NCBI RefSeq assembly: GCF_014190875.1
Contig: NZ_JACHVS010000001.1
Span: forward strand, 496,001-560,000
DNA length: 64,000 nt
DNA from: Paeniglutamicibacter cryotolerans
GTDB lineage: Bacteria > Actinomycetota > Actinomycetes > Actinomycetales > Micrococcaceae
Direction: 5' to 3'
Shown piece by piece: positions 34,142 to 54,966 of the stretch. Both the position numbers and the translations under genes were made by a program. Position 1 is the first letter of the stretch. The number at the start of each line of letters is the position of its first letter. The notes beneath the pieces are model-generated. The model ran no database searches and had not been told where the DNA came from. It worked only from the letters and a program-made list of their open reading frames with translations.

Positions 34142-34184
34142 ATCAGTTGTCCTTACCCCCTATCCACAACTGATTCCTTCGGGT

Positions 34185-34190
34185 TAGTCT
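34185..34190 (+). promoter_or_regulatory. -10 element for the leader ORF and Lrp gene
   Basis: TAGTCT lies 6 bases before ATG 34197, the spacing of a leaderless start. TCCACA at 34163-34168 could be the -35 (16 bases apart). Confidence 0.45.
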
Positions 34191-34196
34191 CTTGCC

Positions 34197-34268
34197 ATGG
34201 AGGTTGCAGCCATGCCACCTGAGCAGTCCGCAGTTCCCAACACGCAGCAGGAGGTCGATACCCGGTGA
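34197..34268 (+). CDS. Possible 23-codon leader peptide overlapping the Lrp start
   Basis: ATG 34197 opens a 23-codon frame (MEVAAMPPEQSAVPNTQQEV and three more residues) that ends at TGA 34266-34268. This stop overlaps GTG 34265 of the Lrp gene as GTGA, and the AGGAGG ribosome site of Lrp lies inside the frame. The -10 element is 6 bases before the ATG. The layout suggests coupled translation from a leaderless start. No repeated codons of one amino acid are present, so attenuation by charging is not suggested. Confidence 0.4.
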   Translation: MEVAAMPPEQSAVPNTQQEVDTR

Positions 34269-37415: not shown

Positions 37416-38337
37416 TTGATTCCAAGGGTTCATGGTCATAGGCGGTCAGCGACCGCAGTGGATGGGAACCGGTGTTCAGGTTGTGCCAGATGGCCACGGT
37501 CAGCGCGAGGATGCGTTGCAGGACCCGCACGGTGACCCCGGCGATGGTCCTCCCGCCATGGGCCTCCAGGTCCAGCTGGCCCTTGAGGGTGTCGTTGATT
37601 GACTCGATGACCTGACGCAGTGGCTTGAGCAGACTCTTTCCGGGACGGGGTTTCTCACCTTGACGGGTCGGACGGACCAGGGTGATCCCGGCCTCGGAGA
37701 GGTCCTGCTCGAAGGCCTTCCCGTAGTAGTTCTTGTCCGCGATGATGATCTGTCCCGGCTCCACCGGGGTGGGCAGGTTTTCCAGGATGCCCAGCAGGGT
37801 CTCACGCTCATCGGCCTTCGCCCCGGTCAGCGCGTAGCCGACCGGCAGTCCGGTCGGGGTGCACAGCAGGTGCAGGCGCAGCCCCCAGAACCACCGTGAA
37901 TGCGAGGCGCAGTACCCGTATTCGGCCCAGCCGGCCAGTTCGGAGCGGTGGGCCGTGGTGTGGGAGCGCCCGCATTCCACAGGGGTGGAATCGGCGAGCC
38001 ACAGCTCATCGGACCAGAGCCCGGTGGTGTGGGCCAGGTGTTCGTTGAGAGCCTGCAGGGTCCCGCCCAGCTTCCGCAGCCGTTTGTTGTATCCGGGTTG
38101 TTGGGGCAGGTCCGGGAACCATCGGCGCAGGTCGTTATGGGATTGGCGGAGCCAGCGGCGTTCGGAGGTGAAGCCGAGCAGGGCCTGGAGGACCGCGATG
38201 GTGACCAGTTCGGCGTCGCTGATCCGGGGCCCGAAGCCGATGGCCGGACGCCACGGGAGCAGGTGCGGATTGGCCTTCAGAAAGTCGTCCGCGCAGGCGT
38301 ACAGTGCTGTTGCAAGGGTGTCCAGATCGGGAGCCAT
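37408..38337 (-). CDS. DDE transposase (IS982-like)
   Basis: The 309-residue protein begins MAPDLDTLATALYACADDF and contains WLADSTPVECGRSHTTAHRS, GYCASHSRWFWGLRLHLLC, IIADKNYYGKAFEQDL and VIESINDTLKGQLDLEAHGG. The Asp in ADST, the Asp in ADKN and the Glu in VIES fit a DDE triad. I recall near-identical layouts in Streptomyces proteins labelled IS982 family, although the ends of the element look more like IS5-type. The start is ATG 38337 with GGAGAG upstream. The stop TAG is formed by the CTAG at the element boundary. The frame is intact. Confidence 0.85.
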   Translation of the reverse strand: MAPDLDTLATALYACADDFLKANPHLLPWRPAIGFGPRISDAELVTIAVLQALLGFTSERRWLRQSHNDLRRWFPDLPQQPGYNKRLRKLGGTLQALNEHLAHTTGLWSDELWLADSTPVECGRSHTTAHRSELAGWAEYGYCASHSRWFWGLRLHLLCTPTGLPVGYALTGAKADERETLLGILENLPTPVEPGQIIIADKNYYGKAFEQDLSEAGITLVRPTRQGEKPRPGKSLLKPLRQVIESINDTLKGQLDLEAHGGRTIAGVTVRVLQRILALTVAIWHNLNTGSHPLRSLTAYDHEPLESII

Positions 38338-38422
38338 CGGAACTCTCCAGGTTCGAATGTTGGGTATTACATCTCGATTCTGGACACCCTTGCCCGCGCT
38401 GTCACCCCTTGGAATCAATCAT
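37412..38422. mobile_element. Insertion sequence, about 1.01 kb, one transposase gene
   Basis: The ends are perfect inverted repeats of 17 bp: ATGATTGATTCCAAGGG on the left and CCCTTGGAATCAATCAT on the right. CTAG flanks both ends (37408-37411 and 38423-38426), best read as a 4-bp target duplication; since CTAG is self-complementary it could also be part of the repeats. Removing the element with one CTAG joins the HTH gene to a natural stop at 38434-38436. The transposase frame is open, so the element may be active. Confidence 0.88.
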
Positions 38423-40392: not shown

Positions 40393-42351
40393 ATGGCCGT
40401 CACCGGACACCGTAGCCCCGAGGCCTCGGGCGGAATCGATGAAAAAGCGGCCCGACAGGTCGCCGAGGACGCCCGCGAGCAGGGCTGGGAACGGCCCAGC
40501 TTCGCCAAGGGCCTCTACATGGGCACCTTCGACTGGTCGCTGATCCATCCGCACCCGCAGGCCCCCTCGGCGGACGCGGCGGACGGAGCCGCGTTCATCG
40601 CCCGGTTGCGCACCGTACTCGAGGGCATCGACGGCCGGGTCATCGAACGCGAGGCCCGGATCCCCGATGCCGACATCAGGGCGCTGGCGGGCATCGGGGC
40701 GTTCGGCATGAAGATCCCGAAGGCATACGGCGGGCTGGGTCTCTCACTGGCCGACTACGGGCGGGCGCTGATGCTCGTGGGCTCGGTCAGCCCGGCCATC
40801 GGAGCGCTGCTCTCGGCACACCAGTCCATCGGCGTGCCGGAACCGGTCAAGATGTTCGGCACGGAGGAACAGAAACGCGAATTCCTGCCGCGCTGCGCTG
40901 CCGGAGCCATCACCGCCTTCCTCCTCACCGAAAACGATGTCGGATCCGATCCGGCCCGGCTAGGCACCTTGGCAGTCCCCTCTGCCGACGGAACCAGCTA
41001 TACCCTGAACGGCGCGAAGCTGTGGACCACCAACGGAGTGGTGGCCGAGCTGCTCGTGGTCATGGCCACCGTCCCGCCGCATGTGCTGCCCGACGGCACC
41101 GCCGCCCGCGGAGGGATCAGCGCGTTCGTGGTGGAGGCCGATTCCCCGGGCCTGGTCGTGGAAAACCGCAATGCATTCATGGGCCTGCGCGGCATCGAAA
41201 ACGGCGTAACCCGCTTCCACGACGTGGTGGTCCCGGCGGCCAACCGGCTAGGCCGCGAGGGCAGCGGGCTGAAGATTGCGCTGAGCACGCTGAACACCGG
41301 TCGGCTCTCGATTCCCGCGCTGTGCGCCGGGGCCGGGAAATGGAGCCTGAAGATCGCCCGCGAATGGTCGAACGCCCGCATCCAGTGGGGGCGCCCGGTC
41401 GGTGAACACGAGGCCGTGGGCAAGAAGATCGCCTACATCGCTGCCAGCACCTTCGCCTTGGAGGCCGTCTTCGAACTGTCAGCCGCGCTGGCCGATGCCG
41501 GCATGAAGGACGTGCGCATCGAGGCGGCCCTCGCCAAGCTGTTCTCCAGCGAAATCGCCTGGAAGATCGCCGACGAGCTGGTACAGGTGCGCGGCGGGCG
41601 CGGCTACGAGAGCGCCGCTTCGCTCGCCGCCCGCGGTGAACGCGCGGTTCCCGTGGAACAACTGCTGCGCGATATGCGCATCAACCGGATCTTCGAGGGA
41701 TCCACCGAGATCATGCACCTGATCATTGCCCGCGAGGCGGTCGACGCGCACCTGAAGGCCGCCGGCGACCTGGCGGTGGCCGATGCCGACCTGAAGCACA
41801 AGGCCAAGGCAGCCGCCGGGGCCTCGGGATTCTATGCACGCTGGCTGCCGAGACTGGCCGCCGGACCCGGGATGCTGCCCAATTCCTACGCCTCGACGGG
41901 GCCACTGGCCAAACACCTGCGCTACGTCGAGAGGGCTTCACGCCGGCTCGCCCGGCATACCTTTGCCGGAATGGCCCGGTGGCAGGCCGGGATGGAATCC
42001 AAGCAGGCCTTCCTGGGCCGGGTGGTGGACATCGGAGCCGAGCTGTTCGCCATGTCGGCCTGCGTGTCCCGGGTCCAGCTGCTGCGCGGTACCGAGCCCG
42101 GACATGCCGACGCGGCGCAGGAACTGGCCGATGCGTTCTGCCGGCAGTCCAGGCTCCGCTGCGAGGAGCTCTTCAACGCACTGTGGGACAACACGGATGC
42201 CGCCGACAAGAAACTCTCCCGCGGTGTCCTCACGGGCGACTACGCCTGGCTGGAGGACGGCGTGATCGATGTTTCCGAGGGCACCGGGCCGTGGATCGCC
42301 GAATGGTCCAGCACCGCCCACGAAGACAAACGACGGCCCTACGGCAGTTAG
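40393..42351 (+). CDS. Acyl-CoA dehydrogenase family protein, long form
   Basis: The 652-residue protein contains a complete acyl-CoA dehydrogenase core: AFGMKIPKAYGGLGLS, FLLTENDVGSDPA (FAD-contacting TE-xx-GSD), LNGAKLWTTNG, the middle beta domain and RIFEGSTEIMHLIIAREAVD near residue 440. Arg/Gly-rich VRGGRGYE precedes it. About 180 extra residues follow the core, as in the long FadE5-like or VLCAD-like enzymes. It oxidises an acyl-CoA thioester; chain type is not predictable. It is alone, facing the gamma-glutamyl-GABA hydrolase gene. Confidence 0.9.
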   Translation: MAVTGHRSPEASGGIDEKAARQVAEDAREQGWERPSFAKGLYMGTFDWSLIHPHPQAPSADAADGAAFIARLRTVLEGIDGRVIEREARIPDADIRALAGIGAFGMKIPKAYGGLGLSLADYGRALMLVGSVSPAIGALLSAHQSIGVPEPVKMFGTEEQKREFLPRCAAGAITAFLLTENDVGSDPARLGTLAVPSADGTSYTLNGAKLWTTNGVVAELLVVMATVPPHVLPDGTAARGGISAFVVEADSPGLVVENRNAFMGLRGIENGVTRFHDVVVPAANRLGREGSGLKIALSTLNTGRLSIPALCAGAGKWSLKIAREWSNARIQWGRPVGEHEAVGKKIAYIAASTFALEAVFELSAALADAGMKDVRIEAALAKLFSSEIAWKIADELVQVRGGRGYESAASLAARGERAVPVEQLLRDMRINRIFEGSTEIMHLIIAREAVDAHLKAAGDLAVADADLKHKAKAAAGASGFYARWLPRLAAGPGMLPNSYASTGPLAKHLRYVERASRRLARHTFAGMARWQAGMESKQAFLGRVVDIGAELFAMSACVSRVQLLRGTEPGHADAAQELADAFCRQSRLRCEELFNALWDNTDAADKKLSRGVLTGDYAWLEDGVIDVSEGTGPWIAEWSSTAHEDKRRPYGS

Positions 42352-42360
42352 GCGCGGAGC

Positions 42361-43137
42361 TCAGGCGACAGCCAGCCGGGCCTCCTGGCGCCGTGCCGAT
42401 TCGGAGACCAGGGCGCCGAACAGGGCCTGCAACTGGCCAGGTTCGGTCAACGCGTCCTCCGGATGCCACTGCACGGCAACGACCCATTCGCCACCCTCCT
42501 GCGCGGGGACCTCTATCCCCTCTACGATGCCGTCATCGGCCAACGCCGAGACGATCAGTCCCTCGCCCAGCTCTTCGACCCCCTGGTGGTGGGAGGAGCG
42601 GACCTCGACGACGGGCGCACCGAGCATCGTGCGCAGCACCGTTCCCGGCACCACCATCACCTGATGCCCGACCATCGCGCTTTCAGGCGAGTGGTCCTTG
42701 TGCGCGGAGTCGGGTCCCAGATCAGTGATCAGCGAACCACCGAAGGCGATATTGATCAGCTGCAGGCCGCGGCAGATGCCCAAGACCGGCAGCCGGGCCG
42801 CCCGGGCCGCCGCGATGAGTGCCAGTTCCAGGGCATCGGCGCGCGAATCGACACGGACGGCGTCGGGATGCCCGGGGCTGCCATAGTGGGCCGGATCCAC
42901 GTCCCCTCCGCCGAGCAGCACCACACCGTCGATCCGTGCGATGTCGAGAAGCTCGGTGGCATCCGGTGCGATCGAGGAACCCGAGGAGTCGAACAGCAGC
43001 GCCCGGCCACCCGCCGCTTCGATGCCGGCACAGGCCTGGGCTGCCAGCCGGTCCAGGTCCGCGATGTAGTCCCGGGAGTAGGCAGTGGAATGCAGGGGCG
43101 TGGTCAGGGCAATCACCGGGCGCTGTGCTGTAGTCAT
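42361..43137 (-). CDS. puuD: Gamma-glutamyl-gamma-aminobutyrate hydrolase family protein (PuuD-like)
   Basis: The 258-residue class I glutamine-amidotransferase-like hydrolase has the nucleophile elbow LGICRGLQLIN (Cys), and His-x-Glu in VQWHPEDAL, the peptidase C26 triad. GGDVDPAHY and SSHHQGVEELGEGL are typical of PuuD. PuuD releases GABA from gamma-glutamyl-GABA in the putrescine route. No gamma-glutamylputrescine synthetase (PuuA) is in the window, so another gamma-glutamyl amide may be the substrate. It follows the reductase gene by 40 bases and may belong to the Rieske operon. Confidence 0.85.
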   Translation of the reverse strand: MTTAQRPVIALTTPLHSTAYSRDYIADLDRLAAQACAGIEAAGGRALLFDSSGSSIAPDATELLDIARIDGVVLLGGGDVDPAHYGSPGHPDAVRVDSRADALELALIAAARAARLPVLGICRGLQLINIAFGGSLITDLGPDSAHKDHSPESAMVGHQVMVVPGTVLRTMLGAPVVEVRSSHHQGVEELGEGLIVSALADDGIVEGIEVPAQEGGEWVVAVQWHPEDALTEPGQLQALFGALVSESARRQEARLAVA

Positions 43138-43177
43138 GGCAACACCCTACCCGTCCGCCCGCAGACCAGTTCGGCTC

Positions 43178-44146
43178 CTAACCCAGGTCAAGGCATAGCC
43201 GCGCGCCCTGACACCGGGACACGCAGATCATCATGGTGTCCCCCGCTTCACGTTCGTCATCGGAAAGCAGCGAATCCCGGTGATCGATCTCCCCGGAGAG
43301 CACGGGGGTTTCACAGGTACCGCAGATTCCTTCCCGACAGGAATTGATCTGGTGGATTCCGGCACCTTCCAACGCCTCGAGGATCGAAGTCCCCGCGGGC
43401 ACCACTACCTCGACTCCGCCGTTGGTTTCCACGATGAACTCGTGGTCCCCCGCATGAGGCCGGTGGGTCTCGGCGATCAGGGCCGGATCCGCTGCGAAGC
43501 GTTCCAGATGCAGCCGCTGCGGATCCTCCCAATCGGCGGTCAACTTCTCCAACACATTCAACAACGGTCCCGGTCCACACGCATAGGCGTCGAAGTTCCC
43601 GGCGGGGTCCGCCAACAGCTCGGCCAGCGGGTAGAAACCCGATTCGTCATCGGCGTGGATGTGCACGCAATCCCCGTATGCGCTCAGCTCCTCGATGAAG
43701 GCCATCGAGCTGCGGGAACGGCCCATGTACACCAGCCGCCAGGGAACCCCGGCCGCGGCTGCCGCCCTGACCATGGGAATGATCGGGGTGATCCCGATGC
43801 CACCGGCGAGGAAGAGGTATTCCTGCGCTGCGGAGAGCACGAAGTTGTTCTTAGGACCGCGGATCTGGATCTTGGCCCCCGGACGCAGCTCATCATGCAC
43901 GAAGGCCGAACCACCGCGGCCGGCCGGTTCGCGCAGGACGGCGATCCGCCAGGAGGCGTCGGCCGGGGATGAGCACAGCGAATACTGGCGCACCAAGCCG
44001 TTGGGCAGCAGCACATCGAGGTGGGACCCGGCATCCCACTGCGGCAGGTCCTCGCCCAGCGGATGGCGCAGCGTCAGCGACAGTACGGTATCCGATTCGC
44101 GGGTCATGGAATGGACTTCGGTTTCGAAGAAATCCAGTGTAGTCAT
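43178..44146 (-). CDS. Ferredoxin-NAD(P)H reductase of the phthalate dioxygenase reductase/VanB type
   Basis: The 322-residue protein has an FMN domain (RQYSLCSSPAD, the RxYS motif), an NAD domain (LAGGIGITPIIPMV, YACGPGPLL) and a C-terminal plant-type [2Fe-2S] domain with cysteines in SCREGICGTC and later in CVSRC. This is the VanB/PDR order. It passes electrons from NADH to a terminal oxygenase; the Rieske oxygenase gene at the head of the same operon is the obvious partner. ATG 44146 is taken as the start (an upstream ATG at 44155 is possible). Confidence 0.9.
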   Translation of the reverse strand: MTTLDFFETEVHSMTRESDTVLSLTLRHPLGEDLPQWDAGSHLDVLLPNGLVRQYSLCSSPADASWRIAVLREPAGRGGSAFVHDELRPGAKIQIRGPKNNFVLSAAQEYLFLAGGIGITPIIPMVRAAAAAGVPWRLVYMGRSRSSMAFIEELSAYGDCVHIHADDESGFYPLAELLADPAGNFDAYACGPGPLLNVLEKLTADWEDPQRLHLERFAADPALIAETHRPHAGDHEFIVETNGGVEVVVPAGTSILEALEGAGIHQINSCREGICGTCETPVLSGEIDHRDSLLSDDEREAGDTMMICVSRCQGARLCLDLG

Positions 44147-44175
44147 GCTGAACACCTTTCGGGTGGGGACGGGTA

Positions 44176-44958
44176 TTAGAGGACGGAGGAGAGGAAAGCG
44201 CGGGTCCGCTCATGCTGCGGATCCCCGATCACCTGCGCAGCAGGACCGGACTCCACCACATGCCCATCAGCCATGAACACCACCCGATCAGCAACATCCC
44301 GGGCAAAATGCATCTCATGGGTCACCACCACCATCGTCATCCCCGTCGCGGCCAGATCCTTCATCACCTTCAGCACCTCACCGACCAACTCCGGATCCAA
44401 CGCACTGGTCGGCTCGTCAAAGAGCATCACCTTGGGCTTCATGCACAACGCCCGCGCAATCGCCACCCGCTGCTGCTGCCCACCGGAGAGCTGACGCGGA
44501 TAGGACTTGGCCTTATCGGCCAACCCCACCGACTCCAACAACGCCAACGCCCGGGCCGTCGCCGTGGAACGCTTCTCCCCCAACACCAGCCGCGGGGCCT
44601 CGATCAGGTTCTCCAACACCGTCATGTGCGGGAACAGGTTGAAATGCTGGAACACCATCCCGATCTCCGTGCGCGAACGGCAGATCCGCGCATGGGACTG
44701 CTCATGGAGCTTGGTGCCCTTGATGTCAAAACCCATCACCGACCCATCGACCCACATCCGACCCCCATCGATCGTTTCCAGGTGGTTGATGCACCGCAGC
44801 AGCGTCGACTTGCCCGAACCCGAGGGCCCGATCAGGCACACCACCTCCCCCTGGGCGACCTGCAGGTCAATGCCCTTGAGCACATGCAACCGGTCGTAAT
44901 ACTTATGGATCAAATCGGCCTTGATCATCGGGGCCGGTACAGCGGTGGCGGCGGTCAT
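44176..44958 (-). CDS. Amino-acid ABC transporter ATP-binding protein (GlnQ type)
   Basis: The 260-residue ATPase shows Walker [26 protein letters not shown], signature [15 protein letters not shown], Walker [15 protein letters not shown] and His in VVTHEMHFA. It belongs to the polar amino-acid importer group. It overlaps the permease gene by 4 bases and stands in the middle of the Rieske operon, so it powers uptake of the operon's substrate. Confidence 0.92.
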
Positions 44959-45896
44959 TTGACTGCTCCCTTCCGGGTCAGCGGGTCATGGACCCGCACG
45001 AAGCGCTTGAGCGTCTGGAACGGGGTCAGCGGCAGCGAACGCTGCCCGCCCCGGGCATAGTGCCGCTCCAGGTAGTACTGCCCGATGCTCAACACCGAGG
45101 TCACCACGATGTACCAGATGCTGGCCACCAGCAACAACGGAATCGTCTCGAAGGTCCGCGCGTAAATGATCTGCGCCGAATACAACAGCTCGGGCACCGA
45201 GATCACCGAGACCAGCGAGGTGGTCTTGAGCATCCCGATCGTCTCGTTGCCGGTCGGCGGGATGATCACCCGCATCGCCTGGGGCAGGATGATCCGGCGC
45301 ATCGTCTGCAACCGGTTGATGCCCAGCGCCCCGGCCGCCTCGGACTGGCCGTGGTCCACCGAGAGGATCCCGGCACGCACGATCTCGGACATGTAGGCAC
45401 CCTGGTTCAGCCCCAGGCCCAGGATCGCCGCGGTCATCGGGGTGATGATCGCATTGGCATCCAACGCCACCCCGGGGATCCCGAAACTGATCAGCGGATA
45501 CAGTGCCGCCAAGTTGTACCAGAACAGCAGCTGCACCAGCACCGGGGTGCCGCGGAAGAAGTTCACGTACGCGAACGCCGCGGTACGGATCACCGGGTTC
45601 GCCGAGAGGCGCATGACCGCCACGATGACACCGAGCACGATGCCGATGACCATGCAGATCGCGGTCAGTTCCAGCGTCACCATGATGCCGCGCACGATCG
45701 ACACGTCGCGGATATACGCCCCGACGGTGGCCCACCCGAAGTTCGGGTTCACCATCACCGAACGGGCCAGCATCCCGGCCAGGATCAGGATCACGATGGC
45801 CGAAGCCCACCGCCCCGGATGCCGGGCCTTGACGATCGTAAAGGCATCAGCCGGCAGCGTTGCCGACCGTGCTTCAGAAGCTAATGTTGCTTTCAT
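44955..45896 (-). CDS. Amino-acid ABC transporter permease
   Basis: The 313-residue membrane protein has an N-terminal extension of about 30 residues, then helices of the HisM/GlnP type. [36 protein letters not shown] and the EAA loop [22 protein letters not shown] are visible. The C-terminus ([11 protein letters not shown]) is typical. Being a single permease gene, it should act as a homodimer with the GlnQ-type ATPase and the binding protein encoded upstream. Confidence 0.9.
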
Positions 45897-45906
45897 GGCA
45901 CCGCCG

Positions 45907-46842
45907 CTATTTCATGATGGCGTCAGCGGCAGTGATGGAAGCGCTCGCTGGCAGCCCCCACTTGTCGTTGATCTGCTGGTAGTTCGGATCTTCGATGATT
46001 TTCTGGGTCGCGGCCTGGATCGCTTCGAGCAATCCGGTCTTCTTGCCCAGCGCGGTTCCGGTCAGCTCAGGCTCGAAGTCGGGGCCGGGAGCGATCTCGA
46101 ACTTTCCGCCGGCCAGTTTTCCCTGGTAGGCGGTCGAGATCGAGTCGGCCATGGCACCCTCGACGCGACCTGAAGTCAGTGCCAGGTTCACATCGGACTG
46201 CGTGGGGAAGAACTGCATGTCGATGGCCGGCTTACCGGCATCGGTGCACTTCTTGGAGAAGGCCGGCAGCACGTCCAGGGACTGGATCGAGCCCTTTTGT
46301 GCTGCGATCTTCTTGCCACAGAGCAGCATCGGGTCCACGCCGAGCTTCTCCGGGTTTCCCGCCGGCACGGCGAGTCCGGTGCCGCCTTGGAGGTAGGGCA
46401 CGAAGTCCACGACCTTGGCGCGTTCCGGGGTGACCGAGAAGGTCGACATGCCCAGATCGTACTTACCGGACTGCAGCCCGGGCAGGATGGTGTCGAACGT
46501 GGCCGGTACGTGGGTGGCCTTGAGCCCCAGGACCTGGGCGATGGCGTCACCCATGTCCACATCCCAACCGATCATGGTCTTGTTGTCAGTGTCGTAGTAC
46601 TCGAACGGCGGGTAGGTCGGATCCGAGGCGATCTTCAGCACGCCGGAATCACGGATGGCTGCCGGAAGCAGCGCGCGGGCCGCCTCGTCGACCTGGAGTG
46701 CCGAGACGCTGCTCGTGGGCTCGGAGGCAGCCGACCCGGAAGCGCTGGAACCGGTCCCCTCCGAGACGGTGGTGCAGCCGGTTGCGGCCAGCGCGATCAG
46801 CGCCGCACCTGCGAAAAAGCGGATGTGGTTTTTCTTCAACAT
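45907..46842 (-). CDS. Amino-acid ABC transporter substrate-binding lipoprotein
   Basis: The 311-residue protein has a lipobox (LAATGCTT, Cys about residue 23), a Ser/Gly-rich linker, and then a family-3 binding protein: SGVLKIASDPTYPPFEYYD, IGWDVDMGDAIAQVLG, YDLGMSTFSVTPERAKVVDF. A Cys pair (MLLCGKK, SKKCTDAG) may form a disulfide. The ligand is likely amino-acid-like, given the family, and should be the substrate of the oxygenase or deacylase in this operon. Confidence 0.9.
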   Translation of the reverse strand: MLKKNHIRFFAGAALIALAATGCTTVSEGTGSSASGSAASEPTSSVSALQVDEAARALLPAAIRDSGVLKIASDPTYPPFEYYDTDNKTMIGWDVDMGDAIAQVLGLKATHVPATFDTILPGLQSGKYDLGMSTFSVTPERAKVVDFVPYLQGGTGLAVPAGNPEKLGVDPMLLCGKKIAAQKGSIQSLDVLPAFSKKCTDAGKPAIDMQFFPTQSDVNLALTSGRVEGAMADSISTAYQGKLAGGKFEIAPGPDFEPELTGTALGKKTGLLEAIQAATQKIIEDPNYQQINDKWGLPASASITAADAIMK

Positions 46843-46898
46843 GGGAGCCTGTCCTTCAATTGAGTCCGCACTTCGGAGTGCGGGCGGGAGTGGAGAAA

Positions 46899-47909
46899 TT
46901 AGACGGTGTCGATGTCGAGCAGTGGTGCGATATACATCAGGTGCGTTCCGGCAGATACCAGCGTCGGTCGGCGCATGATCGCCACCATTCCATCCACGCG
47001 GGCGGTCAGGGTGAGCGGGTCACGGTCGAGCTCGTCGATGAAGTGCACCTGGGCGACCGGGGCACCGGCCGCGACCTGATCGCCGAGGTCGACCAGCGGT
47101 TCGAAGAGTCCCACTGCGGTGGAGGTCACAGGTGAGTCCGAGACCAGTTCCAGCCAGACCGGATCGTCAGGATCCAGTTCCGGGGTTCCATCTTCCGGAG
47201 CCAGCACGCCCAGCGAACGCAGCAGCCCGCCCATTCCGGTCCGCATGGTCGCCAATGTCCGCCGGTCGACGGTACCGGCCCCGGAGAGCTCCGTGGAGAT
47301 CGTCGGAATTCCGGCCAGGTCCCCGGCACTGCTCAGCGAGCCCGGTTCCAGCAACGGTGCGACGACCATCGCATAGGGAAGGCCCAGCGACCGTACCGCC
47401 TTCAGCTTGGCTGCCCAGCCCGCTTCGTCGGGGCCGCGGTAGGTGAAGCTACTGGGCAGGTAGGTGGAATTCGATCCACCCGAATGCAGGTCGATGACGA
47501 AGTCGGCCCGGGGCAGCAGACCCGAAGAGATCAGGTTTGCCACCTGGTCGGTGGGCCCACCACGCGCATCGCCCGGGTAGCTGCGGTTCAGGTTTCCGGC
47601 ATCAATCGGGGAGACGCGTGTTCCTGCGCGCACGGCGGCCGAGTTGGCAGCCGGGACGATCATCAGCGTCCCGGTCAGATCCGCCGGGTCGATCGTGCGC
47701 ACCAGCTCGTGGAGCAGGATCTGTCCTTCGTACTCGTCCCCGTGCGTCCCGGCCACCAAGAGTACGACGGGCCCGGGGCCCGAGGACAGGTGTGCCACCG
47801 GGACCGGGATGACCGAGCCGTCGTGCACGTTATCCGAGTGAACCACGTGTCCGTAGCCGAGTTGCTTACCGGTGCCGGAGAAGTCGATCCCGGTGAACAC
47901 GGCGCTCAC
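46899..47909 (-). CDS. Succinylglutamate desuccinylase/aspartoacylase family deacylase (DoeB-like)
   Basis: The 336-residue protein has the zinc carboxypeptidase-like fold of AstE/AspA: VAGTHGDEYEGQ with the His and Glu zinc ligands, NLNRSYPG, and DLHSGGSNS with the second His. TELSGAG supplies the usual Glu region. The form resembles DoeB, which removes acetyl from N-acetyl-diaminobutyrate in ectoine breakdown, but no other ectoine gene is here. It would cleave an N-acyl amino acid or similar amide. GTG 47909 overlaps the stop of the HutD-like gene as GTGA. Confidence 0.85.
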   Translation of the reverse strand: MSAVFTGIDFSGTGKQLGYGHVVHSDNVHDGSVIPVPVAHLSSGPGPVVLLVAGTHGDEYEGQILLHELVRTIDPADLTGTLMIVPAANSAAVRAGTRVSPIDAGNLNRSYPGDARGGPTDQVANLISSGLLPRADFVIDLHSGGSNSTYLPSSFTYRGPDEAGWAAKLKAVRSLGLPYAMVVAPLLEPGSLSSAGDLAGIPTISTELSGAGTVDRRTLATMRTGMGGLLRSLGVLAPEDGTPELDPDDPVWLELVSDSPVTSTAVGLFEPLVDLGDQVAAGAPVAQVHFIDELDRDPLTLTARVDGMVAIMRRPTLVSAGTHLMYIAPLLDIDTV

Positions 47910-48355
47910 GGGACCCACCGCAGCGCCGCTGCGTGCCGGGGCACCAGCGTGGTGACCGAGACCCGCGACGTCGGACCGTCCAACGAAACGCGAAGCTTCT
48001 CGTCGTCTTCACCCTCCACGATGAACACGTCACCGGGGTGCAGCCAGCGTTCCCAGGGTCCGTCCACGGCGGCAACCAGCGCCTGCCCGAAGAGCACCGC
48101 AATCACCGTCTGTGTTCCCGAGGCGCGTTCCACGACCTCGCTGTGTCCATCGGCATAGATGTCGGTGGAGACGGCAATGAATTCGGGGTCCGCGTTGATG
48201 AGCACCTTCGAACTCTCGGTGCGTTCATCCAACTGCGCCGTCCAACGCCACGGATCCCCGCGCTCGTCGGTGTCGGGGCAGGCAGCCAGAGTCCGCAGAC
48301 CCTGTTCATCGTCCCAATAGCCGTCGAGGGAACCGGCACGTACGAGTAACCACAT
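47906..48355 (-). CDS. HutD-like cupin protein
   Basis: The 149-residue product looks like a small cupin. The pattern WRWTAQLDERTES, then AVLFGQALVAAVDG, WLHPGDVFIVEGEDDEKLRVSLDGP recalls HutD, a protein of unknown biochemical function tied to histidine use in Pseudomonas. The match is by eye and moderate. It lies between the Rieske oxygenase (5 bases away) and the deacylase (overlap), so it is a core member of the operon, perhaps as a sensor or regulator of flux. Confidence 0.5.
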   Translation of the reverse strand: MWLLVRAGSLDGYWDDEQGLRTLAACPDTDERGDPWRWTAQLDERTESSKVLINADPEFIAVSTDIYADGHSEVVERASGTQTVIAVLFGQALVAAVDGPWERWLHPGDVFIVEGEDDEKLRVSLDGPTSRVSVTTLVPRHAAALRWVP

Positions 48356-48360
48356 GGCCG

Positions 48361-49404
48361 TTACGCCCGTGTACCGGCGACAGCGGCCGGCTTCTGTGCT
48401 GCGGCCTGCTCGCGCTTGATCAGGTTAGCCAGGATGCGTCGGGCCTTGGCCACGCCGCCGTCCTGGGCGATGAGCACGTCGAATTCTCCGGCCGGGCGTT
48501 CCTGCATCCCGATTTCCTGCGCCTCGAGCGCCTCGGCATCCTCGCGCAGCACCGTGGCTAGTCCGACTTCCAGGTCCGCCGTCGCCTGTGCGTCGTCCAC
48601 GGCGAAGTTGCGGCTGAAGGCGTAGTAGTACCAGGCGTTGTTCGCATCGATCGGGGTGATTCCGTTGAGCACCTTGATCAGGTAGCCCTCGGCACGTGGA
48701 CGTCCTTCACCGGTGATGCCCGAGTGCAGTACGTGCAGGTTCGGCACGAAGAATTCGGTGCAGTGGAACCGGTCGTAGTTTCCGCTAATCCCCATGGTGT
48801 CCGCGTACAGCGGCGGGGCCGGCACCGAAGGCATCAGCCGGTCTACGCTGACGACCGAGCCTTCTACCTCAACAGTGATGCCATGTTCGTAGATGTAGTC
48901 GTCTCCGACGGTGGACTGGTGCAGGAACGACTCGTGGGTCAGGTCAAGCAGGTTGTCATGGATCAGATCGGCACGGCAGGCGAAGTGCACCGAGTGGGTG
49001 ACTGTGGCCCATTCCGGATCGGTCATCCAGTGGGTGTCCGGCACGTCGGCCGGGTCGGCCAACTCCGGGTCGCCCATCCAGGCCCAGATCCAGCCGTCCT
49101 TCTCCACCAACGGGTACTTGCGCACCTTAGCGCGCTCGGGGATGGTGGTCTGTGCCGGAACCTTGGTGCACATGCCATCGGACCCGTAGGTGAAGCCATG
49201 GTAACCGCATTCGATGGAGTCGCCGACGGTGCGGCCGGCCGAGAGCGGGAAGGCGCGGTGTGCGCAGCGGTCTGCCAGTGCCACGGGCGTGCCGTCCTGG
49301 GTCCGGAAGAGCACCAGCGGCTGCTCGCAGATGACGCGGCGTTCCGGCTTGCGCGTGACTTCGGTGGACCAAGCAGCAACATACCAGGTGTTCAGGACAT
49401 ACAT
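48361..49404 (-). CDS. Rieske non-heme iron oxygenase, VanA-like terminal component
   Basis: The 347-residue protein has a Rieske domain with Cys-x-His in CAHRAFPLS and Cys-x2-His in CGYHGFTYG. The catalytic domain holds the mononuclear iron site DNLLDLTHESFLH (Asp-x-His-x4-His arrangement). The size and layout fit the VanA/dicamba demethylase group that works with a VanB-type reductase, which is encoded at the end of this operon. Enzymes of this group demethylate ethers or amines or hydroxylate rings. The amino-acid importer in the operon suggests a zwitterionic or amino-acid-like substrate. It is the first gene after the GntR-controlled region. Confidence 0.88.
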   Translation of the reverse strand: MYVLNTWYVAAWSTEVTRKPERRVICEQPLVLFRTQDGTPVALADRCAHRAFPLSAGRTVGDSIECGYHGFTYGSDGMCTKVPAQTTIPERAKVRKYPLVEKDGWIWAWMGDPELADPADVPDTHWMTDPEWATVTHSVHFACRADLIHDNLLDLTHESFLHQSTVGDDYIYEHGITVEVEGSVVSVDRLMPSVPAPPLYADTMGISGNYDRFHCTEFFVPNLHVLHSGITGEGRPRAEGYLIKVLNGITPIDANNAWYYYAFSRNFAVDDAQATADLEVGLATVLREDAEALEAQEIGMQERPAGEFDVLIAQDGGVAKARRILANLIKREQAAAQKPAAVAGTRA

Positions 49405-49439
49405 TTTTCGGGCCTAACGTGAGTAAGACGACTGTGATT

Positions 49440-49463
49440 GTATTCACCGTATACAGTGAATAC
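49440..49463. promoter_or_regulatory. GntR operator candidate, 24-bp near-perfect palindrome
   Basis: Arms GTATTCAC and GTGAATAC flank a core that contains GTATAC (49449-49454). Only one base pair of twelve is mismatched. It lies 36 bases upstream of the Rieske start and 113 bases upstream of the GntR start. A second GTATAC core, within GGTATACC, is at 49522-49529. Confidence 0.7.
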
Positions 49464-49575
49464 CGATGGGTCAAGCAAAATTTGTGATCCACCACACCCA
49501 CGCGACCCGTCTGCGGGTCGAGGTATACCACAAGCTAGACTTCAGCTAACAGTCTGAGAACGCGGGGGAAAACGG

Positions 49576-50256
49576 ATGGCATCGAGGGTCCAGGACACGC
49601 GGCCGCTGGCTGTCAGGGTCTATGAGCGCATGGCATCGGAGATTGTCGACGGCACGCTCAAGCCCGGTACGGCCCTGATCCAGGAACACGTAGCCGCGCA
49701 ATACGGAGTTTCCCGGACCCCGGTGAGGGACGCCCTCACCCAGGTCACCTTGGAGGGTCTGGCCTCCCTGGTGCCGGGCAGCGGCTATGTGGTCAACGAA
49801 CTCACCTCCCAGGACGTGAGCAACGTCTTCGAGGTGCGCTATGCCTTGGAAGAACTCGCCGTCCGCCAAGCCATCGGACACCATACCCCCAAACAACTGG
49901 TGCGCCTCCGAGCCCTGATCGACGAATTCGAAACAATCGATCCGGACGACGCCGAAGAGCAGTTCCAGCTCGGGAAGGACTTCCACCTTGCGCTGGTGGG
50001 CCCCTGCCCCAACCGGTATCTGCGCGAAACCCTGGAGAACATCTGGGCGCATCCGATCCAGCGCCGGATCACCCGAGCCTATGAAATCGGGCCCCGGCAT
50101 CAGGCGGAGATCGCCACGGCACATCGACAGATTCTTGCCGCGCTACAGAGCGGGGACATCGATCTGATCATTCGCGTCCTAGGCTACTGCCACGATTCCG
50201 GCGACGTCACCGCCTACGCTCAGGTTGTTGATTCCACCAACGCAGCAACCCAGTGA
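49576..50256 (+). CDS. GntR family regulator, FadR/FCD subgroup
   Basis: The 226-residue protein has the GntR HTH (AVRVYERMASEIVDGTLKPGTAL, AAQYGVSRTPVRDALTQVTLEGL) and an FCD ligand domain with the metal-type ligands in DFHLALVG and AHRQILAALQSGD. It diverges from the Rieske operon and should repress it in the absence of a pathway metabolite by binding the palindrome between them. It ends 28 bases from the convergent PucR gene. Confidence 0.9.
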   Translation: MASRVQDTRPLAVRVYERMASEIVDGTLKPGTALIQEHVAAQYGVSRTPVRDALTQVTLEGLASLVPGSGYVVNELTSQDVSNVFEVRYALEELAVRQAIGHHTPKQLVRLRALIDEFETIDPDDAEEQFQLGKDFHLALVGPCPNRYLRETLENIWAHPIQRRITRAYEIGPRHQAEIATAHRQILAALQSGDIDLIIRVLGYCHDSGDVTAYAQVVDSTNAATQ

Positions 50257-50284
50257 CGGACCATCACCGATGCTCAGGCATCGG

Positions 50285-51958
50285 CTAACGCACGGCTTCC
50301 CTTCCCACTGCTTGCCCGTTAACCCGCCGCCACAGCAGGGCCACATGGAGCGAGGTACGCGATTCAGCGTCCTCCAGCGAGACGCCCAGGCGAGCCTCCA
50401 GCTTGGCCAGGCGCGCATACAGTGCGGGCCGACTCAGGTAGCCGGTGCGGGCCAGTGCCGATTTGTTACCGCCGTGGCGCAGGTAGAGCTCAAGCAGTTC
50501 CAGCGCCTCGGCATCGGGCGGGTTCAGGATCCCGGCCAGCTCCGCCTCGGCAAAGGTGGCCAGCCGGGCGTTGGAGGCCAGCAACGAGAGCAAACCGCGC
50601 AGGCGGACGTCGGCGAAGCGGTAGAAGCGCCGGGTGCGCGAGTCGAAGGTCGCAACAGTCTCCGCGACCTGGGCAGCCTCGTCCAGGCCGTGGGCCGCCG
50701 CGCCGATGCTCCCGTAGCCGCGCCCGACACCGGCCGAGAAGCGGGACCCGCCAAGCTCGTCGGCCAGCTGCCCGCAGATCCGCTCCAGCGCCGGTTCCTC
50801 CAGCTGCCGCGCCGAAAGCCCGAGCAGCACGCCGATCGAGCCGGATTGCAGGCTGGCTGCCAGTGCCTGGTTCCGGGTGGATGCCAGCACCGTGCCGAGC
50901 ACCTCGAGCAGTTCGCGCTCGCGGAGTTGCAAGCCGGTCGGCGCCTCCCCGGGGGCCGCATCGAGGCGCAGCACCAGCGGTACGTAGTGCACGGCGGCGC
51001 CCAGCCCCAGTGCGGCGGCGCGGGCGGCAACCGCCGCGTCGCTCAGCGCGTGCGGCTGGCGCAGTTCGTGCAGCAGTCCGGCCCGGGCCTGGTGCAGCAG
51101 CTCGCGTTCGTCGCGCCCGGCCAACCGGGCGATGGTTAGCGTCTGCCCGGCTCGTTCGAGCACCAGCGCCGCGTCGTCGTCATCGACCAGCGGTCCGGGC
51201 ACCACCAGCCGGCCCCAGCGCCGCCCGCGGACCCCGACGGGGGCCTGCAACCAGGATTCCGGTGCGTTGGCGCTGCGCCCGGTGGCTTCCCGGTAACGCA
51301 CCCGGCGCGAGCGTTCGGTCCAGCCCTCCAGCAGTTCATCGGCAGCGCTGCCCGCCGTCTCGAAGGCGAGCACCAGGTGCCCGACATCCTCCAGTACCAC
51401 CGGCGCCTCGATCAACTCGGCGGCCCGTGCGACGATATGCTCCTCGCTGGCGGATTCCAGGCTGAGCGCGGTGAACACCTCGTGGATGGTGCGTGAGCGT
51501 TCCAGCGCCGCCAGCTGGTCCGACACCAGCATGCGGTGCACCACCTCGGTCACCTCGACGAAGCGCATCCGCTTGCGTACCAGGACCACCGGGTAGTCCA
51601 CTTCCCGGGCAGCGGCGCGCAGACCCTGGACGCTCGATTCGACCTCGTCCCCGGCTCCTGCCAGCTCGATGACCACGCCTGCGGCACCCGCCTCGCGGAT
51701 CTGGCGCAGGAAGTAGTGCGCCCCGGCCCCGGGTCCCCTGAAGGCCAGGCCGGTGCTGAGCACCAGTTCCCCGCCCTGGAGCAGACCGGCCATGTCTGCC
51801 GATTCGGCTACATGCACCCAACGGACCACGTTTTCCAGTGAATCGGCGCCGGCCAGCACCAGTGGTTCGGCGTCGCGCAGCACCTTCAGCTCGAGGATGC
51901 GGGCCACGCTCAGTCGCCCGGTGGCCGGGTGGGTAAATCCGTCGTTCTGCTCCATCAT
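50285..51958 (-). CDS. PucR family transcriptional regulator
   Basis: The 557-residue protein starts with a PucR N-terminal domain (SVARILELKVLRDAEPLVLAG, VVRWVHVAESADMAGLLQGGELVLSTG), has a GGDEF-like middle part and ends with the PucR HTH (LELLELYLRHGGNKSALARTGYLSRPALYARLAKLEARLG). PucR proteins control purine, amino-acid or polyamine catabolic genes. It diverges from the semialdehyde dehydrogenase gene with about 110 bases between. TACACT ends 6 bases before ATG 51958, so the start is probably leaderless; ATG 51964 and 51955 are alternatives. Confidence 0.9.
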   Translation of the reverse strand: MMEQNDGFTHPATGRLSVARILELKVLRDAEPLVLAGADSLENVVRWVHVAESADMAGLLQGGELVLSTGLAFRGPGAGAHYFLRQIREAGAAGVVIELAGAGDEVESSVQGLRAAAREVDYPVVLVRKRMRFVEVTEVVHRMLVSDQLAALERSRTIHEVFTALSLESASEEHIVARAAELIEAPVVLEDVGHLVLAFETAGSAADELLEGWTERSRRVRYREATGRSANAPESWLQAPVGVRGRRWGRLVVPGPLVDDDDAALVLERAGQTLTIARLAGRDERELLHQARAGLLHELRQPHALSDAAVAARAAALGLGAAVHYVPLVLRLDAAPGEAPTGLQLRERELLEVLGTVLASTRNQALAASLQSGSIGVLLGLSARQLEEPALERICGQLADELGGSRFSAGVGRGYGSIGAAAHGLDEAAQVAETVATFDSRTRRFYRFADVRLRGLLSLLASNARLATFAEAELAGILNPPDAEALELLELYLRHGGNKSALARTGYLSRPALYARLAKLEARLGVSLEDAESRTSLHVALLWRRVNGQAVGREAVR

Positions 51959-52071
51959 GAACATAGTGTAAAGCCAGAACGGCAAGTACTTACAAGGTGC
52001 GCGTGGTGTGCGGTTCGTGTGCGGGGTCACAATGGAGGAAAGCACACCCCCGGGAAAGGACCCCACCCATC

Positions 52072-53565
52072 ATGCAGACAGTTACCCACTGGATCAACGG
52101 CGCCTACGTGGCACCGGAAGCCGACGCCCGCTACTCCGACGTCATGAACCCGGCCACCGGCGCAGTCACCTCCCAGGTCGTCCTGGCCTCCGCCGCCACC
52201 ACGGCCGAGGCCATCGCCGCCGCACAGGCCGCTTTCCCGGCTTGGCGCGACACGTCGCTCTCGCGTCGTGTCGCCGTCATGTTCAACTTCCGCGAACTGC
52301 TCAATGCCCGCAAGAGTGAACTCGCCGCCATCATTACGGCCGAGCACGGCAAGGTCCTGGATGACGCACTGGGCGAGGTCGCCCGCGGACAGGAAGTCGT
52401 GGAATTCGCCTGCGGCATCCAGCACTTCATGAAGGGTGGCTACACCGAAAACGCTTCCACCAAGGTCGATGTGCACTCGATCCGCCAGGCCATCGGCGTC
52501 ACCGCCATCATCTCCCCGTTCAACTTCCCGGCCATGGTCCCGATGTGGTTCTACCCGGTCGCCATCGCCACCGGCAACACCGTCGTGATCAAGCCCTCCG
52601 AGAAGAACCCGACCGCGCTGAACTGGATGGCCGAACTCTGGAAGGAAGCCGGCCTCCCCGATGGCGTCTTCAACGTCGTGCACGGCGACAAGGAAGCGGT
52701 CGACACCCTGCTGACCCACCCGGACGTGAAGTCCGTTTCATTCGTCGGCTCCACCCCGATCGCCGAATACGTCTACAAGACCGGCACGTCACACGGCAAG
52801 CGCGTGCAGGCGCTGGGCGGGGCGAAGAACCACATGCTGGTCCTCCCGGATGCAGACCTGGACCTCGCAGCAGACGCAGCGGTCAACGCCGGCTTCGGCG
52901 CTGCGGGCGAACGCTGCATGGCCATCTCCGCCCTGGTCGCGGTCGAGTCCATCGCCGATGAGCTGGTCGCCAAGATCGCCGAGCGCACCCGCACCCTGCG
53001 CGTGGGCGACGGAACCCGCGGCTGCGACATGGGCCCGCTGGTCACCGCAGTGCACCGTGACAAGGTTGCCTCATACATCGACGCCGGCGAAGCAGCAGGC
53101 GCCACCATGGTGCTCGACGGCCGCAACGCCACCCCTGACGCCGACGGCGAGGGCTTCTTCCTGAACCCGACCCTCTTCGACCATGTCGGCACCGACATGA
53201 GCATCTACACCGACGAAATCTTCGGCCCGGTCCTCTCGGTAGTACGCGTCGAGTCCTACGACGAGGGCATCGAGCTGATCAACAACAGCCCGTACGGCAA
53301 CGGCACCGCCATCTTCACCAACGACGGTGGCGCCGCCCGCCGCTTCGAGAACGAGATCCAGGTCGGCATGGTCGGCATCAACGTGCCGATCCCCGTCCCG
53401 ATGGCCTACTACTCCTTCGGCGGCTGGAAGAACTCGCTCTTCGGCGACACCCACGCCCACGGCGCAGAGGGCGTGCACTTCTTCACCCGCGGCAAGGTCG
53501 TCACCTCGCGCTGGCTCGACCCGAGCCACGGCGGCATTAACCTCGGCTTCCCGCAGAACGCCTAG
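52072..53565 (+). CDS. mmsA: CoA-acylating methylmalonate/malonate-semialdehyde dehydrogenase
   Basis: The 497-residue aldehyde dehydrogenase has the MmsA/IolA pattern: WINGAYVAP, ITAEHGKVLDDALGEVARG, AIISPFNFPAMVPMWF, FVGSTPIAEYVY, QALGGAKNHMLVLPDAD and the catalytic Cys in GAAGERCMAIS, with GERCMA specific to the CoA-acylating group. The C-terminal GWKNSLFGDTHAHG is also typical. It turns (methyl)malonate semialdehyde into acetyl- or propionyl-CoA. With the aminotransferase downstream it would convert beta-alanine (or aminoisobutyrate) to acetyl-(propionyl-)CoA. Confidence 0.93.
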   Translation: MQTVTHWINGAYVAPEADARYSDVMNPATGAVTSQVVLASAATTAEAIAAAQAAFPAWRDTSLSRRVAVMFNFRELLNARKSELAAIITAEHGKVLDDALGEVARGQEVVEFACGIQHFMKGGYTENASTKVDVHSIRQAIGVTAIISPFNFPAMVPMWFYPVAIATGNTVVIKPSEKNPTALNWMAELWKEAGLPDGVFNVVHGDKEAVDTLLTHPDVKSVSFVGSTPIAEYVYKTGTSHGKRVQALGGAKNHMLVLPDADLDLAADAAVNAGFGAAGERCMAISALVAVESIADELVAKIAERTRTLRVGDGTRGCDMGPLVTAVHRDKVASYIDAGEAAGATMVLDGRNATPDADGEGFFLNPTLFDHVGTDMSIYTDEIFGPVLSVVRVESYDEGIELINNSPYGNGTAIFTNDGGAARRFENEIQVGMVGINVPIPVPMAYYSFGGWKNSLFGDTHAHGAEGVHFFTRGKVVTSRWLDPSHGGINLGFPQNA

Positions 53566-53592
53566 TCCCGAGACCTCGCAGAAGGATAGAAC

Positions 53593-54966
53593 ATGACCAC
53601 CGAAGCAACCACGGCAGCCGTGTCCGCGCAGGACATTGCCGATGGCGTCCGCGCCCACGAACTGGACCGCGAGCACGTCTTCCACTCCTGGCAGGCACAG
53701 GGCCCGTTCACCCCGATGACGATCCTCAAGGCCGAGGGCTCGTATGTCTGGGACGGCGAGGGGAACAAGCTGCTTGACCTCTCCTCGCAGCTCGTGAACA
53801 CCAACATTGGACACCAGCACCCGAAGGTCGTCGCGGCGATCCAGGAGCAGGCAGGCAAGCTCTGCACGATCGCACCTCAGCACGTGAACGATGCCCGTTC
53901 CGAGGCCGCCCGGCTTATCGCCGAGCTGACCCCCGGGGACCTGAACCACGTGTTCTTCACCAACGGCGGCGCCGACGCGGTGGAGCACGCGATCCGCATG
54001 GCCCGCCTGCACACCGGCAAGCACAAGGTCCTCGCGGCCTACCGCAGCTACCACGGCGGCACCCAGCTGGCCGTGAACGTCACCGGCGACCCGCGCCGCT
54101 TTGCCAACGACCACTCGGATTCCGGCGTCGTGCACTTCATGCCTGCCTACGGCTACCGCTCCTACTTCGCCTCCACCACCGAGGCCGAAGAGACAGAGCG
54201 CGCGCTGCGCCACCTGGAAGACATGATCGTGCTCGAGGGCGCATCCAACATCGGCGCGTTGATCCTCGAATCAATTCCGGGCACCGCGGGCATCTACATG
54301 CCGCCGGCCGGCTACATGGCCGGCGTGCGCGAACTGACCCGCAAGTACGGCATCGTCTTCATCGCCGACGAGGTCATGGCCGGCTTCGGCCGTTCGGGCA
54401 AATGGTTCTCGATCAACCATTGGGACATCACCCCGGACCTGATCACCTTCGCCAAGGGCGTGAACTCCGGATACGTTCCGCTGGGCGGCGTCGCTATTTC
54501 CGATGCCATCTTCGAGACCTTCCGCGATCGCGCCTACCCGGGCGGCCTGACCTACTCGGGCCACCCGCTGGCCTGCGCCGCCGCCGTTGCCACGATTGAG
54601 GCAATGAAGGAAGAGGGCATGGTGGAGAACTCCGCCCGCCTGGGCGAAGACATCATCGGCCCGGCGCTGCGCGCCATGGCAGCCAAGCACCCGTCGGTGG
54701 GCGACGTGCGCGGAGCCGGCTGCTTCTGGGCGGTCGAGCTGGTCAAGAACCGCGAAACCCGAGAACCACTGGCTCCGTACGGCGGCTCCTCGCCGGAAAT
54801 GAACCAGGTAGTGGGCGCATTGAAGGCCGAAGGCATCCTGCCCTTCGCCAACTTCAACCGCATCCATGTGGTTCCGGCGCTGAACATCAGCGACGAAGAC
54901 CTGCTGACCGGGCTTGCCGCCCTGGACAAGGCACTGGACGTGGCCGACGGATTCGTCGAAGCATAG
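53593..54966 (+). CDS. Class III aminotransferase (beta-alanine/GABA type)
   Basis: The 457-residue PLP enzyme shows GSYVWDGEGNKLLDLSSQLVN, FFTNGGADAVEHAIRMARLH, YHGGTQLAVNVTGDPRR, VFIADEVMAGFGRSG and the lysine in TFAKGVNSGYVPLGG. The nearest known functions are omega-amino acid:pyruvate and GABA transaminases. Its place 27 bases after the semialdehyde dehydrogenase gene, with a divergent PucR gene, argues for beta-alanine or 3-aminoisobutyrate breakdown. A strong terminator follows. Confidence 0.88.
   Translation: MTTEATTAAVSAQDIADGVRAHELDREHVFHSWQAQGPFTPMTILKAEGSYVWDGEGNKLLDLSSQLVNTNIGHQHPKVVAAIQEQAGKLCTIAPQHVNDARSEAARLIAELTPGDLNHVFFTNGGADAVEHAIRMARLHTGKHKVLAAYRSYHGGTQLAVNVTGDPRRFANDHSDSGVVHFMPAYGYRSYFASTTEAEETERALRHLEDMIVLEGASNIGALILESIPGTAGIYMPPAGYMAGVRELTRKYGIVFIADEVMAGFGRSGKWFSINHWDITPDLITFAKGVNSGYVPLGGVAISDAIFETFRDRAYPGGLTYSGHPLACAAAVATIEAMKEEGMVENSARLGEDIIGPALRAMAAKHPSVGDVRGAGCFWAVELVKNRETREPLAPYGGSSPEMNQVVGALKAEGILPFANFNRIHVVPALNISDEDLLTGLAALDKALDVADGFVEA

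Follow-up and report, generated by a model that had tools for sequence, protein, structure and literature searches.

A conserved actinobacterial gene unit joins a Rieske oxygenase to an amino-acid-type importer and a HutD-like protein

Introduction

Rieske enzymes of the VanA_C type demethylate O or N on aromatic rings; the caffeine N-demethylases have as their targets the N-methyl groups of an imidazole-containing ring system, and hydroxylation also lies within the Rieske oxygenase repertoire. The described systems that come closest to the locus reported here are the vanillate O-demethylase VanAB, dicamba O-demethylase, the DoeB/EutE deacylases and HutD of histidine utilisation. We analysed a stretch of 64,000 nucleotides from the 4.1-megabase genome of Paeniglutamicibacter cryotolerans (assembly GCF_014190875.1, contig NZ_JACHVS010000001.1, positions 496,001 to 560,000, forward strand; hereafter the window), in which genes for a Rieske oxygenase and its reductase, a HutD-like protein, a zinc deacylase and an ATP-binding cassette (ABC) importer lie together beside a divergent GntR gene. 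Individually, these parts are members of known families or similar to them, yet we know of no description of a HutD relative combined with a Rieske operon. Searches of the open-licence literature, a portion of the published record and hence weak evidence, found no publication with this gene set, none treating HutD and Rieske enzymes together, and none relevant to methylhistidine in connection with Rieske enzymes.

Results

The gene unit

An earlier note on this DNA, made from its letters alone, had described seven minus-strand genes with overlaps or gaps under 70 bases, and both the coordinates and the family matches bear this out. The first gene (48361..49404, minus strand, as are the six that follow) encodes a VanA-type Rieske oxygenase of 347 amino acids (PF00355 and PF19112). 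After a gap of 5 base pairs (bp) comes the gene for a cupin-fold protein of 149 amino acids (47906..48355), whose likeness to HutD derives from its predicted structure; it overlaps by 13 bp the gene for an AstE/AspA-type zinc deacylase of 339 amino acids (46899..47918; PF24827, 131 bits), which is DoeB-like (TIGR02994, 222 bits against a cutoff of 402.7). Following a 56-bp gap, the importer is encoded by a solute-binding protein of family 3, a probable lipoprotein with a lipobox by reading (45907..46842; PF00497), then, 10 bp on, by the sole permease gene, of the polar-amino-acid type (44955..45896; PF00528; TIGR01726, 79.6 bits against a cutoff of 42.2), and, with a 4-bp overlap, by a polar-amino-acid-type ATPase (44176..44958; PF00005) that is both TcyN-like and EhuA-like while falling under both cutoffs. 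A 20-bp gap separates the latter from the final conserved gene, for a VanB/PDR-type FAD-NAD-2Fe2S reductase (43178..44155; PF00970, PF00175 and PF00111). By these gene coordinates, no gap within the unit exceeds 56 bp and two junctions overlap, and the seven genes are presumably co-transcribed as one operon. The divergent regulator gene that the note had named is present on the plus strand (49576..50256) and encodes GntR and FCD domains (PF00392 and PF07729).

Conservation across actinobacteria

To place the unit among relatives, we compared 37 actinobacterial loci: the window, L035-L054, L021, L023 and 14 loci found with the Rieske protein alone (L064-L068, L076-L078, L080-L082, L121, L122 and L124; L numbers are our locus labels). 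Loci that length or position showed to be the same contigs were left out (L015-L020, L022, L024-L026, L079, L117-L120, L123, L125 and L126, as well as G1385, whose match position is that of L047). Presence was scored within 9.5 kilobases (kb) of the Rieske gene, with identity thresholds set gene by gene. Since L035, L047, L052, L066, L076, L077, L078 and L080 are cut by contig ends, absence counts are upper bounds.

Most often found with the Rieske gene are the HutD-like gene (35 of the 37 loci), the GntR gene (31), the reductase gene (30) and the importer genes (binding protein 29, permease 28, ATPase 28). The first of these counts is inflated, because many loci (the first ones, from 13 genomes, and the 20 named ones) were recruited through the HutD-like protein; among the 14 loci recruited by the Rieske protein alone, it is 12. 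With 24 of 37 loci, the deacylase is optional, and deacylation is thus not the core reaction. Rieske identity between the window and the other 36 loci ranges from 67 to 89%. Gene order is unchanged in genomes whose HutD-like protein shows 51-70% identity, and such agreement between diverged genomes makes the arrangement more than chance. The seven minus-strand genes, together with their divergent GntR neighbour, are real and form one conserved unit; the union of a two-part Rieske system, an amino-acid-type importer and an AstE-type deacylase held up across actinobacterial loci, and the neighbourhood comparison that the note had proposed for Rieske, AstE-type and HutD-like genes found the same set recurring in actinobacterial relatives.

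In the Micrococcaceae loci, a divergent GntR gene is followed by the Rieske, HutD-like, deacylase, importer and reductase genes, with L049 and L050 lacking the deacylase and L035 cut after the binding protein. Rearranged versions also occur: the deacylase and importer lie beyond the GntR gene, on its far side, in L080 and L082, as does the deacylase in L081, where the importer was not found, and L076 has Rieske, importer, HutD-like and reductase genes, in this order, and no deacylase. In the Brevibacterium loci (L053 and L054), only Rieske, HutD-like and reductase genes and a downstream GntR gene were found. That deacylase and Rieske genes remain together in L080, L081 and L082 despite the changed order argues for a common function.

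At the level of genomes, the distribution is patchy. A Rieske ortholog was found in 22 of 345 genomes of the family at E 1e-150, in 7 of 396 of the order at 1e-140 and in 7 of 394 of the class at 1e-120 (own genome included), in 1 of 296 of the phylum at 1e-140 (the own one) and in 1 of 295 genomes of another genus, a large-genomed one that is probably Streptomyces, at 1e-140. The HutD-like gene is present in 10 of 15 genomes of the same genus (own included) and in 13 of the 59 genomes searched.

Individual loci showed further features. The Rieske gene of the L066 genome has one stop within the matched stretch, and the binding-protein match of L080 (12539-13443) falls into two pieces in different frames, so this gene may be broken. 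In L077, the HutD-like and reductase genes are separated by a cytochrome P450 gene on the opposite strand (1723-2961). In L067 (3810-9960), the Rieske and HutD-like genes stand beside genes for an amidase, an agmatinase-type ureohydrolase and a second, GbcA-like Rieske protein.

The regulator site

Between the GntR and Rieske genes lies a 24-bp palindrome, GTATTCAC-N8-GTGAATAC (49440..49463), which is probably the GntR operator. Its core, GTATACA, recurs in 24 of 25 intergenic regions compared, L077 being the one without it; these regions were chosen among the loci with GntR beside Rieske. Allowing up to 3 mismatches, the pattern occurs at a single site in the genome, and it was absent from 100 shuffles of the window. 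By reading, a possible Rieske-operon promoter, TTGACC-N17-TACGGT (49446..49474, minus strand), is overlapped by the palindrome; a sigma-70 consensus scan detected no promoter in 42000-50500. The single genomic site suggests one dedicated, self-contained regulon. A palindrome regulon tying the operon to hut or paralogous loci was considered and dropped, as no second site exists in the genome.

The HutD-like protein

The note's term 'HutD-like cupin' stands on the structural side: the three best matches of the predicted structure in a second-look structural alignment are HutD structures, and by this prediction the protein would have the HutD fold. On the sequence side, it falls outside the HutD family (PF05962), with no Pfam match even at E 10, that family included, and no NCBIfam match. 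The genome encodes a canonical HutD elsewhere, which scores 146.8 bits against PF05962. No match to the HutD-like protein was found in a plasmid collection.

Catalytic genes and competing substrates

In alignment, the [2Fe-2S] ligands of the Rieske domain and a His-His-acid iron site appear intact. The best solved match of the oxygenase is that of dicamba O-demethylase, and NdmA and NdmB are among its solved relatives at low score. Models of the GbcAB betaine-type demethylase fit poorly: the oxygenase gave no GbcA match at E 0.001, and the reductase scored 78.6 bits against 500 for GbcB. An ordinary VanAB locus would account for the VanA_C domain and the VanB-type partner, and our reductase is 46% identical to one encoded beside pca genes; the corresponding oxygenase is just 41.6% identical, the importer, deacylase and HutD-like gene would be left unexplained, and the own genome has another Rieske/reductase pair (L056). 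Given the low identity and the other partners, we rejected a plain VanAB locus, the least probable of the explanations weighed. A second Rieske gene of the same genome (L055, 9096-17755; C1, about 2431100), 56% identical to ours, lies with an importer and a HisC-like frame that scores 265 bits, below the cutoff of 276.55; this stretch also holds genes for FMN- and FAD-type hydroxyacid oxidases and represents a second, related pathway.

Our VanA_C-type oxygenase, with its dicamba-type best match, also suits an alternative that we consider doubtful: that another aromatic amino-acid derivative, e.g., a methoxylated aromatic acyl amino acid, is imported, O- or N-demethylated and then split by the deacylase. 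The P450 gene within the L077 unit fits this, as does the presence of a deacylase in 24 of the 37 loci, whereas the HutD-like fold and the hut neighbours described below would go unexplained.

The closest solved structures of the deacylase are 3cdx and DoeB (6twm), which raises the question of ectoine-type degradation, with an Ehu-like importer, a DoeB-like deacylase and the Rieske enzyme in a side step. In line with it, DoeB-like genes lie beside EhuB-annotated importers in Aminobacter and Bosea, and the ATPase reaches 326 bits against the EhuA cutoff of 345.4. The remaining importer scores lie further from their cutoffs (EhuB 49.9 against 190.9, EhuC 171.6 against 196.95, EhuD 137.4 against 205.2 bits), the deacylase falls short of its own, the unit's genes include no ectoine hydrolase and the deacylase is optional. 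With the family cutoffs unmet, we rejected ectoine degradation as very improbable. The genome also carries a second deacylase copy, 75% identical (L057, 9461-18478), beside acyl-CoA dehydrogenase, CoA-transferase-like and thiamine pyrophosphate (TPP)-enzyme genes, and none of the Rieske queries used matched the 19-kb stretch around it. A TPP enzyme 85-86% identical to that of L057 occurs near the GntR gene, within 9.5 kb, in 4 of the 37 Rieske loci; it was set aside as a clue, given this count and a best model, 'thiamine pyrophosphate protein', that names no reaction.

The histidine lead

We propose a scheme of GntR-controlled import and Rieske demethylation of a histidine-type compound, to which we assign a probability of about 0.38. 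The GntR regulator would sense the substrate or product and control the operon from the operator over the promoter. Binding protein, permease and ATPase would import an amino-acid-like compound, which the Rieske oxygenase, supplied with electrons by the VanB-type reductase, would demethylate (or hydroxylate), and from which the DoeB-like deacylase, where present, would strip an N-acyl group. By analogy with the HutD of histidine utilisation, the HutD-like protein may serve as a ligand-binding accessory, either a flux guard or a sensor. As the likeliest substrate we see an N-methylated, sometimes N-acylated, histidine-type amino acid, candidates being a methylhistidine, an N-acetylated methylhistidine and related imidazoles such as anserine or hercynine, and the product, histidine, would pass to the separate hut pathway. 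While this identity of the substrate is tentative, we consider it quite probable that the unit is dedicated to taking up an amino-acid-like compound and oxidising it with the Rieske enzyme. The note's sequence of uptake, oxidation or demethylation, and deacylation of an acylated or methylated amino acid is likewise retained in so far as importer, Rieske enzyme and deacylase are united, and loses deacylation as a core step.

A hint of histidine metabolism, which the note had not put forward, comes from the predicted structure of the HutD-like protein and from hut genes near related clusters in other genomes. In Arthrobacter sp. CAU 1506 (L049), the operon lies 45 bp from the end of hutI, beyond which follow hutF, an allantoate-amidohydrolase-type gene and hutU, with hutI, hutF and hutU all above NCBIfam cutoffs. 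In the P. cryotolerans genome, hut genes lie elsewhere, as does the canonical HutD; we take three of them to be hutH, hutU and hutI by reading and from 70-84% identity to L049. The HisC-like frame and importer beside the genome's second Rieske gene (L055) count as a further point in favour.

Similar associations occur on alphaproteobacterial plasmids. The deacylase matched 574 plasmid records, and among the contexts examined (7 of 15 listed), 3 have a Rieske gene near the deacylase, all in Rhodobacterales, with hut genes in the stretch of two. A search with the Rieske protein of one of these plasmids (L085) gave, counting L085, 9 plasmid records at or above 80% identity (82% or more in each), eight from Rhodobacterales and one from Thalassospira, all of which were examined, the contexts of L085 and L086 being taken around their deacylase. 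Five have hut genes (L085, L086, L092, L094 and L132) and four an AstE-type deacylase (L085, L086, L091 and, in a short and apparently split version, L094), three of these deacylases being 39-41% identical to ours. The 28-kb plasmid of L094 holds importer, Rieske, reductase, the short deacylase and five hut genes together. Beside the cluster of Mameliella (L132) lie two HutD-annotated pieces, the first with a Pfam HutD match and the second with none.

Five of the 16 listed records of more distant L085-Rieske relatives were also examined (L095 and L127-L130), and hut genes appear in none of the five. Those of Shinella (L095) and 'Roseateles' (L129) encode a HisC-like transaminase and two formaldehyde-detoxification proteins (glutathione-formaldehyde dehydrogenase and gfa), another Shinella record (L127) has neither, and L128 and L130 have sarcosine-oxidase-type genes instead. 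A DUF2817 domain fused to an ABC ATPase is encoded in the L095 (15450-17414) and L129 (13384-15393) clusters, and L127 has a DUF2817-annotated gene of equal length. The Shinella-type Rieske protein found 6 records in a phage collection, every one below 60% identity.

These data also bear on an unlikely variant, in which the reaction of the Rieske enzyme is the hydroxylation of an imidazole or another heterocyclic amino acid, with no methyl group removed. Rieske oxygenases do hydroxylate, and the hut genes beside L049 and beside some of the alphaproteobacterial clusters would suit it; the formaldehyde-detoxification genes of L095 and L129 suggest methyl removal there, and are found neither in L127 nor in the actinobacterial loci. 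An N-methylated substrate of the histidine type would account for the HutD-like protein and the polar-amino-acid importer as well as for the hut neighbours and the formaldehyde genes of the distant clusters.

Several findings weigh against the demethylation scheme. As to the HutD-like protein, the relation is one of predicted structure, without sequence support: the top 50 Foldseek matches are other cupin-type folds with no HutD among them, alignment by hhalign to the single own HutD gave a probability of 1.7%, and the sequence match in the PDB has an E value of 0.14, behind an unrelated protein at 0.032. As to the hut genes, queries with the own hut, Shinella and Rhodobacterales genes found them in the flanks of only 1 of the 37 actinobacterial loci, L049, which lacks the deacylase, so chance could suffice; the window operon itself does not lie with them. 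Among the plasmids, there is no Rieske gene in 4 of the 7 contexts of the deacylase's best matches, no hut gene in the stretch examined in 4 of the 9 L085-type records (L091, L093, L131 and L133) and no deacylase in 5 of the 9. The L085-type Rieske and reductase proteins are 32% and 24-25% identical to ours, so the substrate need not be shared, and neither the window nor the actinobacterial loci searched gave a homologue of the Shinella formaldehyde genes. Finally, L064, L065 and L067 hold just the Rieske gene and a distant HutD-like gene of the set, and L066 and L068 hold the Rieske gene and importer with neither HutD-like gene nor reductase, a warning that the Rieske enzyme may also work with other partners. 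Because of the 32% identity and the single actinobacterial hut case in 37, the histidine assignment is not strict.

Surrounding genes

Forty bp beyond the reductase gene lies a PuuD-like gene (42361..43137, minus strand; peptidase C26, PF07722), which the note had considered a possible eighth member. This did not survive the comparison: none of the other 36 Rieske loci, several of them cut by contig ends, yielded the gene, and being confined to the window, it counts as a local neighbour and not as part of the conserved set. Its assignment ends at the peptidase C26 family, as the gamma-glutamyl-GABA (gamma-aminobutyric acid) hydrolase model NF008471 gave 74.1 bits against a cutoff of 266. The gene may belong to the surrounding polyamine-type genes. 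From translations, we take 29344-36132 to encode a Pot-type polyamine importer with a class III aminotransferase, and 50285-54966 an aldehyde dehydrogenase and a second class III aminotransferase, the latter stretch also encoding a PucR regulator (Pfam). Two genes that we read as insertion-sequence transposases (37408-38418 and 55296-56684) flank the region.

Given such flanking genes (PuuD, PucR, aldehyde dehydrogenase, class III aminotransferase), the unit itself might belong to putrescine or GABA use. PucR occurs less than 9.5 kb from the Rieske gene in 5 of the 37 loci and this aldehyde dehydrogenase in 3 (window included in both counts); related class III aminotransferases (68-82% identical) lie in L035, L037, L044 and L051. 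With PuuD in a single locus, and neither PucR nor the aldehyde dehydrogenase in more than a minority, we regard this as highly improbable.

Discussion

Methylhistidines and anserine are compounds of muscle and urine, and if the histidine assignment is true, the unit would provide a bacterial fate for them and a job for the HutD-type fold beyond the hut operon. A wider generalisation seems unlikely, though worth stating: a bacterial route, to our knowledge undescribed, for N-methylated histidine (free, N-acetylated or in a dipeptide), with uptake, zinc deacylation, Rieske N-demethylation and hut entry, and with a divergent HutD relative as dedicated guard, assembled at least twice, in Actinomycetes and Alphaproteobacteria. 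If the assignment is false, what stands is a conserved operon with its own regulator site, an importer and a soluble oxygenase, the substrate of which is directly testable.

Compared with known systems, our unit shares with VanAB the Rieske and VanA_C oxygenase domains and a separate VanB-type FAD/2Fe-2S reductase, and with dicamba O-demethylase the domain make-up of the oxygenase. It differs from VanAB in the 41.6% identity of its oxygenase to the VanA-like enzyme beside pca genes, and from both in that its partners include a HutD-like gene, a deacylase and an importer of the polar-amino-acid type. DoeB/EutE is the closest named deacylase: the stretches HGDEYEG, GNLNRS, HSGG and TEL, covering metal-site and catalytic parts, are common to ours and solved DoeB, whereas the TIGR02994 score (222 against 402.7) and the lack of an ectoine hydrolase in the unit set it apart. 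From HutD, the HutD-like protein differs in its length (149 amino acids against chains of 184-190 residues), its place in a Rieske operon and the missing Pfam HutD match. The alphaproteobacterial plasmid clusters, in turn, resemble our unit in combining Rieske oxygenase, reductase and importer, with a deacylase in 4 of 9 and, besides, a HisC-like transaminase and in some cases hut genes; they differ in the low identity of their Rieske (32%) and reductase (24-25%) proteins to ours and in their peptide-type ABC importer, which is of another class.

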